Shown here: piece after piece, positions 1 to 64,000 of the stretch
Position numbering within the stretch: the stretch's first letter is position 1
How the letters are laid out: each line of letters begins with the position of its first letter
Assembly (NCBI GenBank): GCA_902760595.1
Contig: CACWHI010000007.1
Coordinates: forward strand, 1 to 64,000
Direction: 5' to 3'
Source: an uncultured Eubacteriales bacterium
GTDB taxonomy: Bacteria > Bacillota > Clostridia > Christensenellales > Aristaeellaceae
DNA length: 64,000 nucleotides
Position numbers and translations under genes: made by a program
The notes under the pieces: model-generated
Told to the model about the DNA's origin: nothing
Databases searched by the model: none
What the model saw: only the letters and a program-made list of their open reading frames with translations

Positions 1-98
<98 letters not shown>

Positions 99-105
99 AT
101 TCCAT

Positions 106-4366: not shown

Positions 4367-6016
4367 ATGGATACTTTTCAGAATCCCGTCCTCCGGGGTT
4401 TTTATCCGGACCCCTCCGTCTGCTTCGCCAACGGGAAATACTACATGGTCACGTCCTCGTTCTACTACTTCCCGGGCCTGCCCGTGTTTGAAAGCAGCGA
4501 CCTGGTGCACTGGCGCCAGATCGGCCACGCGATCCACAGGCCGGAGCAGCTGGACTACCGGGACTGCGACAACTCAGAGGGCCTCTGGGCGGCGACGATC
4601 CGGTATCACGAGGGACGGTTCTATATCGTCAACACCCTGGACGTCAACGGCCGCGAGCACCGCTACAACTTCATCGTGACGGCGGAGGATCCCGCGGGAC
4701 CCTGGTCGGACGCGGTGATCGTGGAAGGCGCGGACGGCATCGACCCGTCGCTGTACTTTGACGACGAGGGGCGGGTCTGGTTCTGCGACAACCATATCCC
4801 GGACGAGCTCGCCTTCCCCACGCACAAGCAGATTATCCTGCGGGAGCTCGACCGGGTGACCTGGCAGTTCAAGGGACCGGAGTACGTGATCTGGGACGCA
4901 AAGGACGATCACAGCCTGTACATGGAAGCGCCCCATGTCTACCATATCGACGGTTGGTATTACCTGATGACCGCCGAAGGCGGGACCCAGACCAACCACT
5001 GCGTGCGGTTTTACCGCAGCCGCAGCCTGACTGGCGGCTACGAGCCCTGTCCGCGTAACCCTGTGGTGAGCAACCGCGGACTCAGGATGCTCAACGCGCT
5101 GGGCGTTTCTGTCGCGGGGCACGGCGATCTGGTGCGGACGGAGGCGGGGGAATGGTACATGGCGCTGCTGGGCATCCGTCCCTATGAAGCCCATGTGGAG
5201 GACTACGAGCGCTTTCAGCCGCGCATGTGGATCCGTCTGCCGGACCGCAACCGGGACGCGCAGTATAACCTGGGCCGCGAGACCTTCCTGCTGCCGATGG
5301 CGTGGGACGGCGACGGCTGGCCCATCGTGGATAACGACAACGGCCTGCTGAACCTGCGGGAGCGCCGTCCCGCCCTGCCCTGGCACCGGGATCCTTGGCA
5401 GAGCCGGGTGGACAATTTTGAGGCGCCCGAGCTGGACCTGCAATGGGTCATGCAGCGGCCTCCCAGGCAGCGCTTCTGGTCGCTCACGGAGCGTCCGGGC
5501 TGCCTCCGGCTGTATGCCCTGCCCGCGCTCGCGGAGGATAAGGCGTCCAGCGCGGCGGTGCTGCGCCGCCAGCAGCACAACGATTTCCAGGCGGCCGCGG
5601 CCATGGAGTTCGCGCCTACGCTGGAGGGCGAGGAGGCGGGTCTCCTGCTGACGCAGAACGAGCGCTTTTCCTACCTGCTGGTCCAGGAAAAACGCGCGGA
5701 CGGCAGCTGGCTCTGCTGCTACCGGATCCTGAACGGGAAGCGCGAGGCGCTGGCCTCCGCCCGTGCGCCGGAGGGGCGCGTGTACCTCTTTATCGAAGGA
5801 AGGCCCGGCCGGTACAGCTTTTACTGGGGCCGGACGGAGCGGGAAATGCTGCCGCTGATCGAGGATGCCGACGGGACCTTTTTGAGCACCCTGGTGGCGG
5901 ACGGCTATGTGGGCGTGCTGATGGGCATGTATGTTTCCGATGGCCGGGCGGCGCGCCGGGACCCTGCCTGTCACGCGGACTTTGACTGGTTCCGGTACGA
6001 GGCGATCGAGGAATAG
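4367..6016 (+). CDS. GH43 glycoside hydrolase, beta-xylosidase/arabinofuranosidase type
   Basis: A 549-residue cytoplasmic enzyme (no signal peptide). The five-bladed propeller domain opens with NPVLRGFYPDPSV, where Asp15 is the expected catalytic base. Asp126 (DGIDPSLYF) fits the pKa modulator and Glu187 (YMEAPHVY) the general acid. The C-terminal part (from about residue 345) is the beta-sandwich seen in GH43 xylosidases. As the last gene of the transporter operon it most likely cleaves imported xylo- or arabinoxylo-oligosaccharides to monosaccharides. Exact specificity cannot be read from the sequence. Confidence 0.92.
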   Translation: MDTFQNPVLRGFYPDPSVCFANGKYYMVTSSFYYFPGLPVFESSDLVHWRQIGHAIHRPEQLDYRDCDNSEGLWAATIRYHEGRFYIVNTLDVNGREHRYNFIVTAEDPAGPWSDAVIVEGADGIDPSLYFDDEGRVWFCDNHIPDELAFPTHKQIILRELDRVTWQFKGPEYVIWDAKDDHSLYMEAPHVYHIDGWYYLMTAEGGTQTNHCVRFYRSRSLTGGYEPCPRNPVVSNRGLRMLNALGVSVAGHGDLVRTEAGEWYMALLGIRPYEAHVEDYERFQPRMWIRLPDRNRDAQYNLGRETFLLPMAWDGDGWPIVDNDNGLLNLRERRPALPWHRDPWQSRVDNFEAPELDLQWVMQRPPRQRFWSLTERPGCLRLYALPALAEDKASSAAVLRRQQHNDFQAAAAMEFAPTLEGEEAGLLLTQNERFSYLLVQEKRADGSWLCCYRILNGKREALASARAPEGRVYLFIEGRPGRYSFYWGRTEREMLPLIEDADGTFLSTLVADGYVGVLMGMYVSDGRAARRDPACHADFDWFRYEAIEE

Positions 6017-60534: not shown

Positions 60535-61938
60535 ATGGAGCGGAAAAACGCGTGGCTGACCTACAGCCCGGAGCAGCTGGAAGCCGTGGAAGCGCTTTCA
60601 GCGTCCTATAAGGCATTTCTGGATCACGGCAAGACGGAGCGCGAGTGCGTGCGCTTGGCGGTGAGCATGGCGAAGGACGCGGGCTACCGCAGCCTGCGCG
60701 AAGCGATCCGCGAGGGGAAGCCCCTCAAGCCGGGCGATAAGCTGTACGACACGCAGATGCAGAAGGCGCTGCTCCTCTTCCATATCGGCGAAAAGCCGCT
60801 GGAGGAGGGCATGAATATCGTCGGCGCGCACATCGACAGCCCGCGTATCGACATCAAGCAGAACCCGCTGTATGAAAACAGCGAGCTCGCGTATGCCGAT
60901 ACCCATTATTACGGCGGCATCAAGAAATACCAGTGGGTCGCGCGTCCGCTCGCGCTGCACGGCGTGGTCGTCAGGAAGGACGGCACGGCAGTGAACGTGG
61001 TCATCGGCGAGGACGAGAACGACCCCGTAGTGGGCATTTCCGACCTGCTCATCCACCTGAGCCAGGAGCAGATGACCAAGAAGGCCAGCGAGGTCATTAC
61101 CGGCGAGGGCCTGGATATCATCCTGGCGGGGCAGCCGCTTCAGGGCGAGGAGAAGGACGCCGTCAAGGCGACGCTCGTCAAGCTGCTCAAGGAGAAATAC
61201 GGGATCGAGGAAGAGGACTTCCTGAGCGCTGAGCTGGAGGCTGTGCCCGCTGAGAAGGCGCGCGATTTCGGCCTGGACCGCAGCATGATCCTGGGCTACG
61301 GCCACGACGACCGCGTCTGCGCGTACGCCGAGGTGCAGGCCATGCTCTCCCTGCCGGCGGTACCGGAATACACGGCCTGCTGCATCCTGACCGACAAGGA
61401 AGAGATCGGCTCCGTCGGCGCTACCGGCATGCAGGCGAAGTTCTTTGAAAATGCAGTCTGCGAGATGCTGCACCTCTGCGGGGGAAAGGCGGGCCTGGGC
61501 CTGCGCCGCGCGCTGGCCAACAGCCGCATGCTCTCCTGCGATGTGAGCGCGGGCTTCGACCCGATGTTCGCCGAGGCCTTTGAGAAGAAGAACGCCGCCA
61601 TGCTGGGCCGCGGCGTCTGCTACAACAAGTTTACCGGCTCCCGGGGCAAGTCCGGCTCCAACGACGCCAACGCCGAGTTCCTGGGCCGCGTGCGCGCCTG
61701 CATGGACGACGCGCAGGTCAACTGGCAGACGGCTGAGCTGGGTCGCGTCGACCTGGGCGGCGGCGGTACCATCGCCTATATCTGCGCGCTGTACGGCATG
61801 GAGGTCGTCGATTCCGGCGTCGCCGTGCTCAATATGCACGCTCCGCAGGAGATCATCAGCAAGGCGGATCTGTACGAGGCGGTCCGCGCCTACACCGCGT
61901 TCCTGAAGACGATGGGAGCCCGGAAGGACGAGCTGTAA
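60535..61938 (+). CDS. M18-family aminopeptidase
   Basis: A 467-residue zinc aminopeptidase. The metal and catalytic groups are GAHIDSPRIDIK (His, Asp), TDKEEIGSVGATG (Glu pair), the Asp of GYGHDDRV and the C-terminal His in NMHAPQE. Length fits bacterial M18 enzymes. No signal peptide, so it acts in the cytoplasm on acidic or neutral N-terminal residues. It follows GH2 by 27 bp. Confidence 0.94.
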   Translation: MERKNAWLTYSPEQLEAVEALSASYKAFLDHGKTERECVRLAVSMAKDAGYRSLREAIREGKPLKPGDKLYDTQMQKALLLFHIGEKPLEEGMNIVGAHIDSPRIDIKQNPLYENSELAYADTHYYGGIKKYQWVARPLALHGVVVRKDGTAVNVVIGEDENDPVVGISDLLIHLSQEQMTKKASEVITGEGLDIILAGQPLQGEEKDAVKATLVKLLKEKYGIEEEDFLSAELEAVPAEKARDFGLDRSMILGYGHDDRVCAYAEVQAMLSLPAVPEYTACCILTDKEEIGSVGATGMQAKFFENAVCEMLHLCGGKAGLGLRRALANSRMLSCDVSAGFDPMFAEAFEKKNAAMLGRGVCYNKFTGSRGKSGSNDANAEFLGRVRACMDDAQVNWQTAELGRVDLGGGGTIAYICALYGMEVVDSGVAVLNMHAPQEIISKADLYEAVRAYTAFLKTMGARKDEL

Positions 61939-61946
61939 AGAAGTGA

Positions 61947-62095
61947 GCAGCGAGGAGCTGCAATTCCAATTCGTCTTTCAGCCAGCTGTCTCCGGATACC
62001 GTTCGGGTCTGAGACTTACAGACAGCTGCTGCGAGAAAACCGCTCCGCCAATCCATCGGTGGAGCAAGAGCGTCGGCAATGGCATGGACCGGCGC
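61947..62095 (+). other. Structured leader before the ECF S component and coaX
   Basis: Four hairpins in a row lie in the 219-bp gap: GCAGC/GCTGC (61947-61961), CAGCTGTCT/AGACAGCTG (61983-61991 with 62020-62028), GCTCCGCC/GGTGGAGC (62042-62049 with 62058-62065) and GCGTCGG/CCGGCGC (62070-62076 with 62089-62095). The RBS (GGAGGAAA) follows about 50 nt later. No strong promoter or terminator was seen. A riboswitch or attenuator for vitamin uptake is possible; no known class matched. Confidence 0.5.
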
Positions 62096-62157
62096 TGCGA
62101 CTGGCGAACATGCCAATACGTCAGATATCTTTATGAATTTGAACGGAGGAAACCAAA

Positions 62158-62763
62158 ATGAAAAAGACTGACAGACGCACACGTACCTTCCAGCTGGTCC
62201 TGCTGGCGATGCTGATCGCGGTCCTGGTGGTGCTGGGATATGTGAATATCCCCATGCCGGCGGGCCTGTCCATCACCTTCAACATGATCCCCGTGGCCAT
62301 CGGCGCAATCGCGCTGGGCGTGCCCGGCGGCGCCATCGTCGGCGGGGCCTTCGGCCTGATCAGCTTCCTGCAGTGCTTCAACCTGTTCGGCTCCAGCCCC
62401 ATGGGCGCCGCGCTGGTCAGTATCAGCCCCTTCCTGATGTTCCTGCAGCGCTTCGTCTCCCGCCTGCTGGTGGGCGTGCTGACGGCGCTGATCTATAAGG
62501 CTTTGAAAAGACGCAATGTCAATACCCCGGTGCGGTGCGGCATCACGGGCTTTGCCGCGGCGTTCCTGAACACGCTGTTCTTCATGTCGCTGCTGGTGCT
62601 GCTGTTCGGCCAGACGGAATATATGCAGAAGGCCATGGCCGGCCGCGGCGTGATCGCCTATATCATCGCCTCCGTGGGCATCAACGCCGTGGTGGAGATG
62701 CTGGTAGCGGCCCTGGTGACCAGCGCCGTAGGGACGGCCCTGAATAAATCGAGACTGCTGTAA
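62158..62763 (+). CDS. ECF transporter S component, probably for pantothenate
   Basis: A 201-residue membrane protein with about six transmembrane segments. LLAMLIAVLVVLGYVNIPMP at the start and the later GGAIVGGAFGLISFLQ are typical of ECF S components, which bind a vitamin and use a shared EcfAAT module. The gene is followed after 15 bp by coaX, pantothenate kinase, so pantothenate is the most likely substrate (inference from context). RBS GGAGGAAA. Confidence 0.88.
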   Translation: MKKTDRRTRTFQLVLLAMLIAVLVVLGYVNIPMPAGLSITFNMIPVAIGAIALGVPGGAIVGGAFGLISFLQCFNLFGSSPMGAALVSISPFLMFLQRFVSRLLVGVLTALIYKALKRRNVNTPVRCGITGFAAAFLNTLFFMSLLVLLFGQTEYMQKAMAGRGVIAYIIASVGINAVVEMLVAALVTSAVGTALNKSRLL

Positions 62764-62778: not shown

Positions 62779-63561
62779 ATGATCCTGACGATGGATATCG
62801 GCAACACCAATATCAAGATCGGCCTGTTTGACAACAACAAGCTCGCCAGGTACTGGCGGCTGGCGACGAAAAGGAGCTATACCTCGGACGAGCTGGGCGT
62901 GCTGGTGACCAGCCTTTTCCACAGCCGGAACGTGGATATGGGGCTGGTGCAGGGCATCATGCTCAGCAGCGTCGTGCCGACCATCAACTATACGGTCGAG
63001 CATATGTGCCGCGACTACTTCGGGGTCGATCCCGCCTTCGTCGCACCGGGCATCAAGACCGGCATCGACATCAAATACGAGAATCCGCGCGAGCTGGGCA
63101 GCGACCGTATCTGCAACGCGGTCGCCACCTATACCGAGTACGGCGGCAATACGATCTATATCGACTTTGGCACCGCCACCACCTTCGGCGTGCTGGACGG
63201 GGGCGGCGCCTTCCTGGGCGGCTGCATCTGCCCGGGTCTGCGCCTGGCCAGCGACGCGCTGGTCAGCGGTACCGCCAAGCTGCCACACTTTGAGCTGATC
63301 CATCCCGAGCATGTGATCGGCAGGAACACCATCGCCAACATGCAGTCCGGCATTTTTTACGGCTATGTGGGCCAGGTGAATTACCTGATCAAACGGATCC
63401 GGGCGGAAATGGGCTGCCCGGACGCCAAAGTCATCGCTACGGGCGGCTTTGCGAAGCTGATCTCCGATGAGTCGAAGATGATCACCTGCTTCGATGGGCT
63501 GCTCACGCTGAAGGGACTGCTGGCGATCTACAACAAGAATTTCGGAGGGGACGCGCAATGA
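62779..63561 (+). CDS. coaX: Type III pantothenate kinase
   Basis: A 260-residue kinase for the first step of coenzyme A synthesis. The phosphate loop is MDIGNTNIKIGLFD with the catalytic Asp near residue 6; further type III signatures are GSDRICNAVATY and YIDFGTATTFGVLD, and GGCICPGLRLASDAL. RBS AGCGAGGAG. It overlaps the homoserine dehydrogenase start by 4 bp. Confidence 0.97.
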   Translation: MILTMDIGNTNIKIGLFDNNKLARYWRLATKRSYTSDELGVLVTSLFHSRNVDMGLVQGIMLSSVVPTINYTVEHMCRDYFGVDPAFVAPGIKTGIDIKYENPRELGSDRICNAVATYTEYGGNTIYIDFGTATTFGVLDGGGAFLGGCICPGLRLASDALVSGTAKLPHFELIHPEHVIGRNTIANMQSGIFYGYVGQVNYLIKRIRAEMGCPDAKVIATGGFAKLISDESKMITCFDGLLTLKGLLAIYNKNFGGDAQ

Positions 63562-64000
63562 AAACCGTGTATATCGGCCTGCTGGGCTGTGGCAACATCG
63601 GCAGCGGCGTGACCAAGCTGCTGGCGGAAATGCGCGCCGAATGGCGGGAGAACTACCAGGTCGATCCGGTGGTCAAGGCGATCCTGGTGCGCGACCTGAG
63701 CAAGCAGCGTCCCGAATATGTGGATACGTCCCTCCTGACGGACGATAAGGACCGCGTGCTCATGGACCCGGAAATCCGCTACGTGGTCGAATGCCTGGGC
63801 GGCGAGCATCCCTCGGCCGACTGGATGTGCGAGGCGCTGCGGGCGGGCAAGCACGTGGTCACGGCCAATAAAATGGCGCTCGCGCTGCACTGGCGAGAGC
63901 TGCACGACGCCTCTGAGTCGGGCCGGGCGTCCCTCTATTTTGAGGCCGCGGTGGGCGGCGCGATGCCGATCATCAAGATCCTTCACGATTCGCTGCAGGC
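63558..64000 (+). CDS. hom: Homoserine dehydrogenase, N-terminal part
   Basis: The first 147 residues are visible; the gene continues past the window end. The dinucleotide-binding GLLGCGNIGSGV opens the protein, followed by HVVTANKMALA and the homoserine dehydrogenase signature EAAVGGAMPIIK. It makes homoserine for the threonine and methionine pathways; thrC is at the other end of the window. ATG 63558 overlaps the coaX stop (ATGA), with GGAGGGG upstream. Confidence 0.93.
   Translation, partial: MKTVYIGLLGCGNIGSGVTKLLAEMRAEWRENYQVDPVVKAILVRDLSKQRPEYVDTSLLTDDKDRVLMDPEIRYVVECLGGEHPSADWMCEALRAGKHVVTANKMALALHWRELHDASESGRASLYFEAAVGGAMPIIKILHDSLQ

Follow-up and report, generated by a model that had tools for sequence, protein, structure and literature searches.

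A leader RNA before a probable pantothenate uptake and kinase operon is probably a diverged pan-type OFF control

The gap at positions 61939-62157 of contig CACWHI010000007.1, which belongs to an uncultured Eubacteriales bacterium (assembly GCA_902760595.1) and was analyzed as a window of 64,000 nucleotides (nt), raises the question of what kind of RNA precedes the pantothenate genes located there. This strongly structured gap separates an M18 aminopeptidase gene from the gene of an energy-coupling factor (ECF) S component, probably the pantothenate transporter PanT, which is followed by coaX and a homoserine dehydrogenase gene (hom); all window coordinates given below refer to the + strand. 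An initial annotation had described four hairpins in the gap that did not fit the TPP, FMN or pan motifs and had proposed a new ligand-binding RNA. Our analysis assigns the leader, with high confidence, to a diverged form of the pan motif RNA (RF01749), a switch candidate published in 2010 and known from pantothenate synthesis genes (Weinberg 2010, PMC2864571), and the whole reading, in which this diverged RNA exerts OFF control over panT-coaX(-hom), is probable.

The assignment depends on two small hairpins. Pan hairpin 1 (61991-62014, TC-CGGAT-[A]-CC..GG-GTCTG-[A]-GA, bulged As at 61998 and 62012) and pan hairpin 2 (62119-62145, CGT-CAGAT-[A]-TC..GA-ATTTG-[A]-ACG, bulged As at 62127 and 62142) each have one bulged A on either strand with exactly five base pairs (bp) between them. 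Searched with a descriptor of this geometry (five pairs flanked by bulged As), the window's leader gives these two hairpins and no others, and two were reached in three of 5000 dinucleotide shuffles, a figure that serves as a consistency check rather than an unbiased p-value because the descriptor was derived from the leaders of relatives. Hairpin 2 is present in the minimum-energy fold, its inner pairs having probabilities of 0.91-0.98, and the leader as a whole is more stably folded than all 200 dinucleotide shuffles (z = -3.04).

The four successive stems described in the initial annotation, including one of nine perfect bp, are all present within 61940-62157. However, the 9-bp stem it emphasized (CAGCTGTCT/AGACAGCTG, 61983-61991 with 62020-62028) is not the key structure: it encloses hairpin 1, and the structures conserved in relatives are instead the two bulged hairpins. 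A stem of other sequence occupies the same location in two leaders from the same genus, L003 and L020. A stem of 5 bp lies at 61947-61961. The spacer between the pan hairpins (62015-62118) at 104 nt far exceeds that of most relatives and contains stems of eight pairs at 62042-62065 and seven pairs at 62070-62095, as well as a further, lineage-specific one at 62102-62115. Same-genus leaders carry different stems in the part of the spacer where the window has 62042-62065 and 62070-62095, and by sequence comparison these two also look lineage-specific.

Of 100 related genomes, 75 contain a homologue of the S component, which usually adjoins coaX. The leaders of the closer relatives nearly always contain two hairpins, the second of which abuts the Shine-Dalgarno sequence (for example, CGTCAGGTATC..GAACTTGAACGGAGG). 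In both hairpins five pairs separate an unpaired A of the 5' strand from one of the 3' strand, and a scan for this geometry picked two hairpins in most of the relatives' leaders. Since long spacers disrupted hairpin 1 in a MAFFT alignment of all 27 complete leaders, the hairpins were aligned apart, hairpin 1 in 25 leaders (the window and 24 others) and hairpin 2 in 27, and two hairpins are present in every one of the 27 leaders used. For hairpin 1, 90.9% of the alignment cells are paired, double changes occur in 10 of the 11 pairs, and the covariation score of 0.705 compares with 0.225 for shuffles and no more than 0.24 for slid controls. Hairpin 2, whose ends are nearly invariant, one of them overlapping the Shine-Dalgarno sequence, scores 0.299 versus 0.186 in shuffles and shows double changes in five pairs. 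The covariation of the tandem hairpins exceeds all 500 shuffles and all slid controls. A second set comprised 78 public contigs collected by means of a pattern in which hairpin 2 was fixed and hairpin 1 left free; all 11 hairpin-1 pairs showed double changes in it, in an alignment that leans towards the structure because it was fitted to the model, and in a set that shares some genomes with the first. The bulged positions of hairpin 1 are A in 75 of 75 and in 73 of 75 rows with a letter at these public loci. The apical loops vary in sequence and length, and the spacer varies in length.

A covariance model, R1, was built from 19 leaders, with the window excluded and leaders with long spacers kept out. 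R1 matches the window at 62068-62149 (E = 5.4e-5) and is found in 58 of the 100 relatives, in 53 of them directly before an S-component match and in the remaining five ahead of an S component plus coaX. The leader is therefore conserved in close relatives, and both bulged hairpins are supported by compensatory changes, the two points on which the initial annotation had let its proposal stand or fall; its view of a regulatory leader on a pantothenate uptake and kinase operon holds, and this leader is conserved and covaries. All 20 matches of R1 across the class lie before S components, 17 of them with coaX in the locus. A second R1 match in the window (5804-5864, 12.6 bits, E 0.91) was dismissed as chance.

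The strongest test of kinship with the pan motif is the coincidence of the two models: 17 of the 20 class-wide R1 matches coincide in position with an RF01749 match, which in 13 cases lies above the gathering score of 36.2 bits. Of 196 genomes of the class, 28 have RF01749 matches, and R1 detects the Rfam-recognized loci L092, L094, L095, L096, L099 and L100 at 1e-6 to 1e-10. The Rfam-positive RNAs L092, L094, L095 and L096 are leaders of an S component and coaX, L100 is the leader of an S component and a type II pantothenate kinase, and all five carry the window-type hairpin 2 on the Shine-Dalgarno sequence; that of L092 (CGTCAGGTATC..GGAACTTGAACGGAGG) closely resembles the one in the window. 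More generally, the leaders of panT-coaX or panT-type II kinase operons recognized by Rfam (L092, L094-L096, L100, L102-L104 and others) share the window's operon type and a closely similar hairpin 2, and differ in scoring above 36.2 bits, whereas the window is below. Judged from these sequences, the Rfam-positive and the window-type leaders form a continuum, with the window at the end beyond the reach of the Rfam model.

The architecture agrees with this. The Rfam pan consensus has three pairs, five pairs, an A, at least two pairs and the loop, with an A on the 3' strand after five pairs; like the window's leader, RF01749 consists of hairpins, mostly in tandem, in a leader of the pantothenate pathway, with a bulged A on each strand at an identical spacing of 5 bp, and its hairpin-1 core GGUAUC..GA(A/G)CC is common to the window's relatives. 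The claim that the leader does not fit the pan motif is contradicted by the shared geometry and pathway, by the arrangement of the hairpins in tandem and by the intermediates that match both models. The differences are an extra outer stem on hairpin 1, the long spacer, another hairpin-2 sequence, a likely expression platform at the Shine-Dalgarno sequence and a position before panT-coaX instead of in the leader of panB, panC or panD. The last context is not exclusive, since Rfam-positive pan RNAs also precede panT-coaX. We call the leader a diverged pan-type variant and not a plain member because it does not reach the Rfam cut-off and is tied to the family through intermediates; what is new here is the variant and its gene context, the kind of RNA being already known.

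How such a leader might act is suggested by its 3' end. The Shine-Dalgarno sequence GGAGG (62145-62149) lies 8 nt from the ATG, and its first G pairs at the base of hairpin 2, in the window as in its relatives, so that a stabilized hairpin 2 would hinder initiation; the spacing between the Shine-Dalgarno sequence and the start is 5-10 nt in 75 public loci with an open reading frame. We propose that the two tandem hairpins control panT-coaX(-hom) as follows. An abundant signal, either pantothenate itself or a product formed from it on the way to and including coenzyme A (CoA), would keep both hairpins closed, acting directly as a metabolite or by way of a bound protein. The 3' strand of hairpin 2 continues into GGAGG, and in its closed form this hairpin would block ribosome entry and thereby reduce pantothenate uptake and phosphorylation, whereas under scarcity of the signal it would open and panT-coaX would be translated. 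A terminator lies downstream of the hairpins at most of 22 further loci, mainly of the panBCD type. Predicted duplex energies allow its 5' arm to pair with the 3' strand of hairpin 2 (for example, at L034, L037, L039, L045 and L088), so that the terminator would remain undisturbed when hairpin 2 is closed. An OFF switch is suggested by both arrangements, and under this model an OFF polarity acting on translation in the window type is moderately likely.

Several observations weigh against the reading of the leader as a pan-type OFF control. RF01749 gave no match in the window, either at the gathering cut-off or at E <= 10, and was above the cut-off in none of the 100 relatives. R1 aligns its own hairpin 1 with a spacer stem in the window and not on 61991-62014, so that the window's hairpin 1 is placed by the alignment of same-genus leaders and by geometry; the placement by R1 on the stem at 62070-62095 was rejected, as this stem has no bulges and neither L003 nor L020 shares it. 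In the whole-leader fold the pair probabilities of hairpin 1 are about 0.3-0.5, and the isolated 46-nt segment folds preferentially into an alternative pairing. No sigma-70-like promoter was found between the M18 aminopeptidase gene and hairpin 1, and the leader RNA may therefore come only from an upstream promoter. Finally, the terminator pairings were judged by duplex energies without a shuffled control.

The candidate signal can be narrowed by the physiology of these bacteria. Of 60 relatives, 57 lack panB, 59 lack panC and 59 lack panD. None of the three genes was found in the window's genome, which is 92% complete; these bacteria therefore probably depend on imported pantothenate, and ketopantoate, pantoate or beta-alanine are unlikely signals. 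Pantothenate, a later intermediate or CoA is left. One genome of the same family (G023, with L048 and L050) has two panB-like genes adjoining enolase-superfamily-like and dehydrogenase-like genes; no panC or panD was found in it and no convincing copy of the motif upstream of its panB genes, which possibly do not serve pantothenate synthesis. Genome G080 has panB genes as well. Three genomes (G163, G178 and G179, with L039/L118, L089 and L040, respectively) each have an Rfam panB-type pan RNA and a separate panT-type leader found by R1, and the two read-outs may serve one signal.

Direct binding of a metabolite, rather than of a protein, has in our estimate slightly less than an even chance. 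The explanation that survives best beside it, and that we regard as comparably plausible, is that the same RNA is the operator of an RNA-binding protein reporting pantothenate or CoA status, without contact with the metabolite; such a protein would probably be a dimer with one subunit per hairpin, and no candidate for it turned up, none having been sought. The simple stems with bulged As, the variable apical loops and the variable spacer length suit an operator, and the first two of these features are in line with Weinberg's suggestion that a dimeric protein binds pan hairpins (PMC2864571). On the other hand, small riboswitches made of tandem bulged stem-loops exist: the NAD+-sensing nadA motif is described as such (PMC7297122) and likewise precedes genes of a cofactor pathway. 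This is a likeness in operation only, since sequence, structure and pathway all differ from those of the window's leader, and we claim no relation.

A new class of ligand-binding RNA unrelated to pan, as initially proposed, would account for a hairpin-2 sequence and a gene context that differ from those of the described pan RNAs, and for a search of the leader against Rfam 15 (at the gathering cut-off and at E <= 10) in which no family reached its cut-off. The matches obtained, to snoRNA and DnaX, were at chance level and to unrelated families; neither TPP, FMN and THF nor any other family was found. However, an unrelated class is largely refuted by sequences in which the hits of both models share their coordinates and gene context, and the identical 5-bp spacing of the bulged As also speaks against it; tied to RF01749 by these intermediates, the leader is very unlikely to represent a new class. 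Still less probable is plain mRNA structure, that is, intercistronic hairpins involved in processing or decay or left from a terminator, without any sensing: the window's extra spacer stems are not conserved in sequence and the gap follows the aminopeptidase gene without a promoter of its own, but the bulged hairpins covary and stay before panT across many genera with differing upstream genes, and the + strand of the gap has no U-run terminator.

We tentatively suggest that the pan-type RNAs, including the window's, are riboswitches that bind CoA or an intermediate of its pathway at or beyond pantothenate, one signal acting on termination in synthesis operons and on translation in uptake and kinase operons. 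If true, this would be the first natural riboswitch for the CoA cofactor pathway; CoA is a major cofactor conspicuously lacking a riboswitch (2022 review, PMC9971707). Our literature search on panT regulation and pan ligands found nothing beyond Weinberg 2010, and no paper that gives pan a ligand or binder or places it before panT or coaX (subscription papers and supplements were not covered). The occurrence of a pan RNA on uptake and kinase operons of apparent non-synthesizers narrows the list of signals to the steps from pantothenate to CoA. In addition, with a length of about 80-95 nt in many species and an end at the start codon region, the compact panT-type leaders lend themselves to simple tests, both in vitro and in translational reporters; an orphan RNA known since 2010 becomes directly testable through the new variant and context. 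The Rfam pan model gives no hit in any of the 100 relatives, among which the leader is common.

The gene calls on which the pantothenate setting had been based hold. The M18 aminopeptidase gene (60535-61938) lies upstream of the leader. The gene at 62158-62763 is placed by family profiles alone as an ECF S component (PF12822, E 1.7e-16), and its closest solved structures, 4RFS (3.2e-11) and 6ZG3 (2.6e-6), are both PanT (PMC7755397), making PanT the probable identity. It is followed by coaX, encoding a type III pantothenate kinase (62779-63561; NCBIfam, Pfam), and, as the third gene of the run, by the homoserine dehydrogenase gene (63558-64000, continuing beyond the window end; NF004976, PF03447), which overlaps the end of coaX and also follows coaX in several relatives. 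At 33 of 40 public loci examined a TATAAT-like hexamer lies 5' of hairpin 1, mostly within 17 nt, and the leader there is therefore probably little more than the two hairpins. In other Clostridia, an Rfam-positive pan RNA stands before a Fumble-type (type II) pantothenate kinase gene and not before coaX (L100, 2988-3079, - strand), and another (L097) lies near such a kinase gene instead of coaX, with an OPT transporter gene also following. The edge of the window (1-100) contains the 3' part of a 5S rRNA gene (Rfam, 79 bits).
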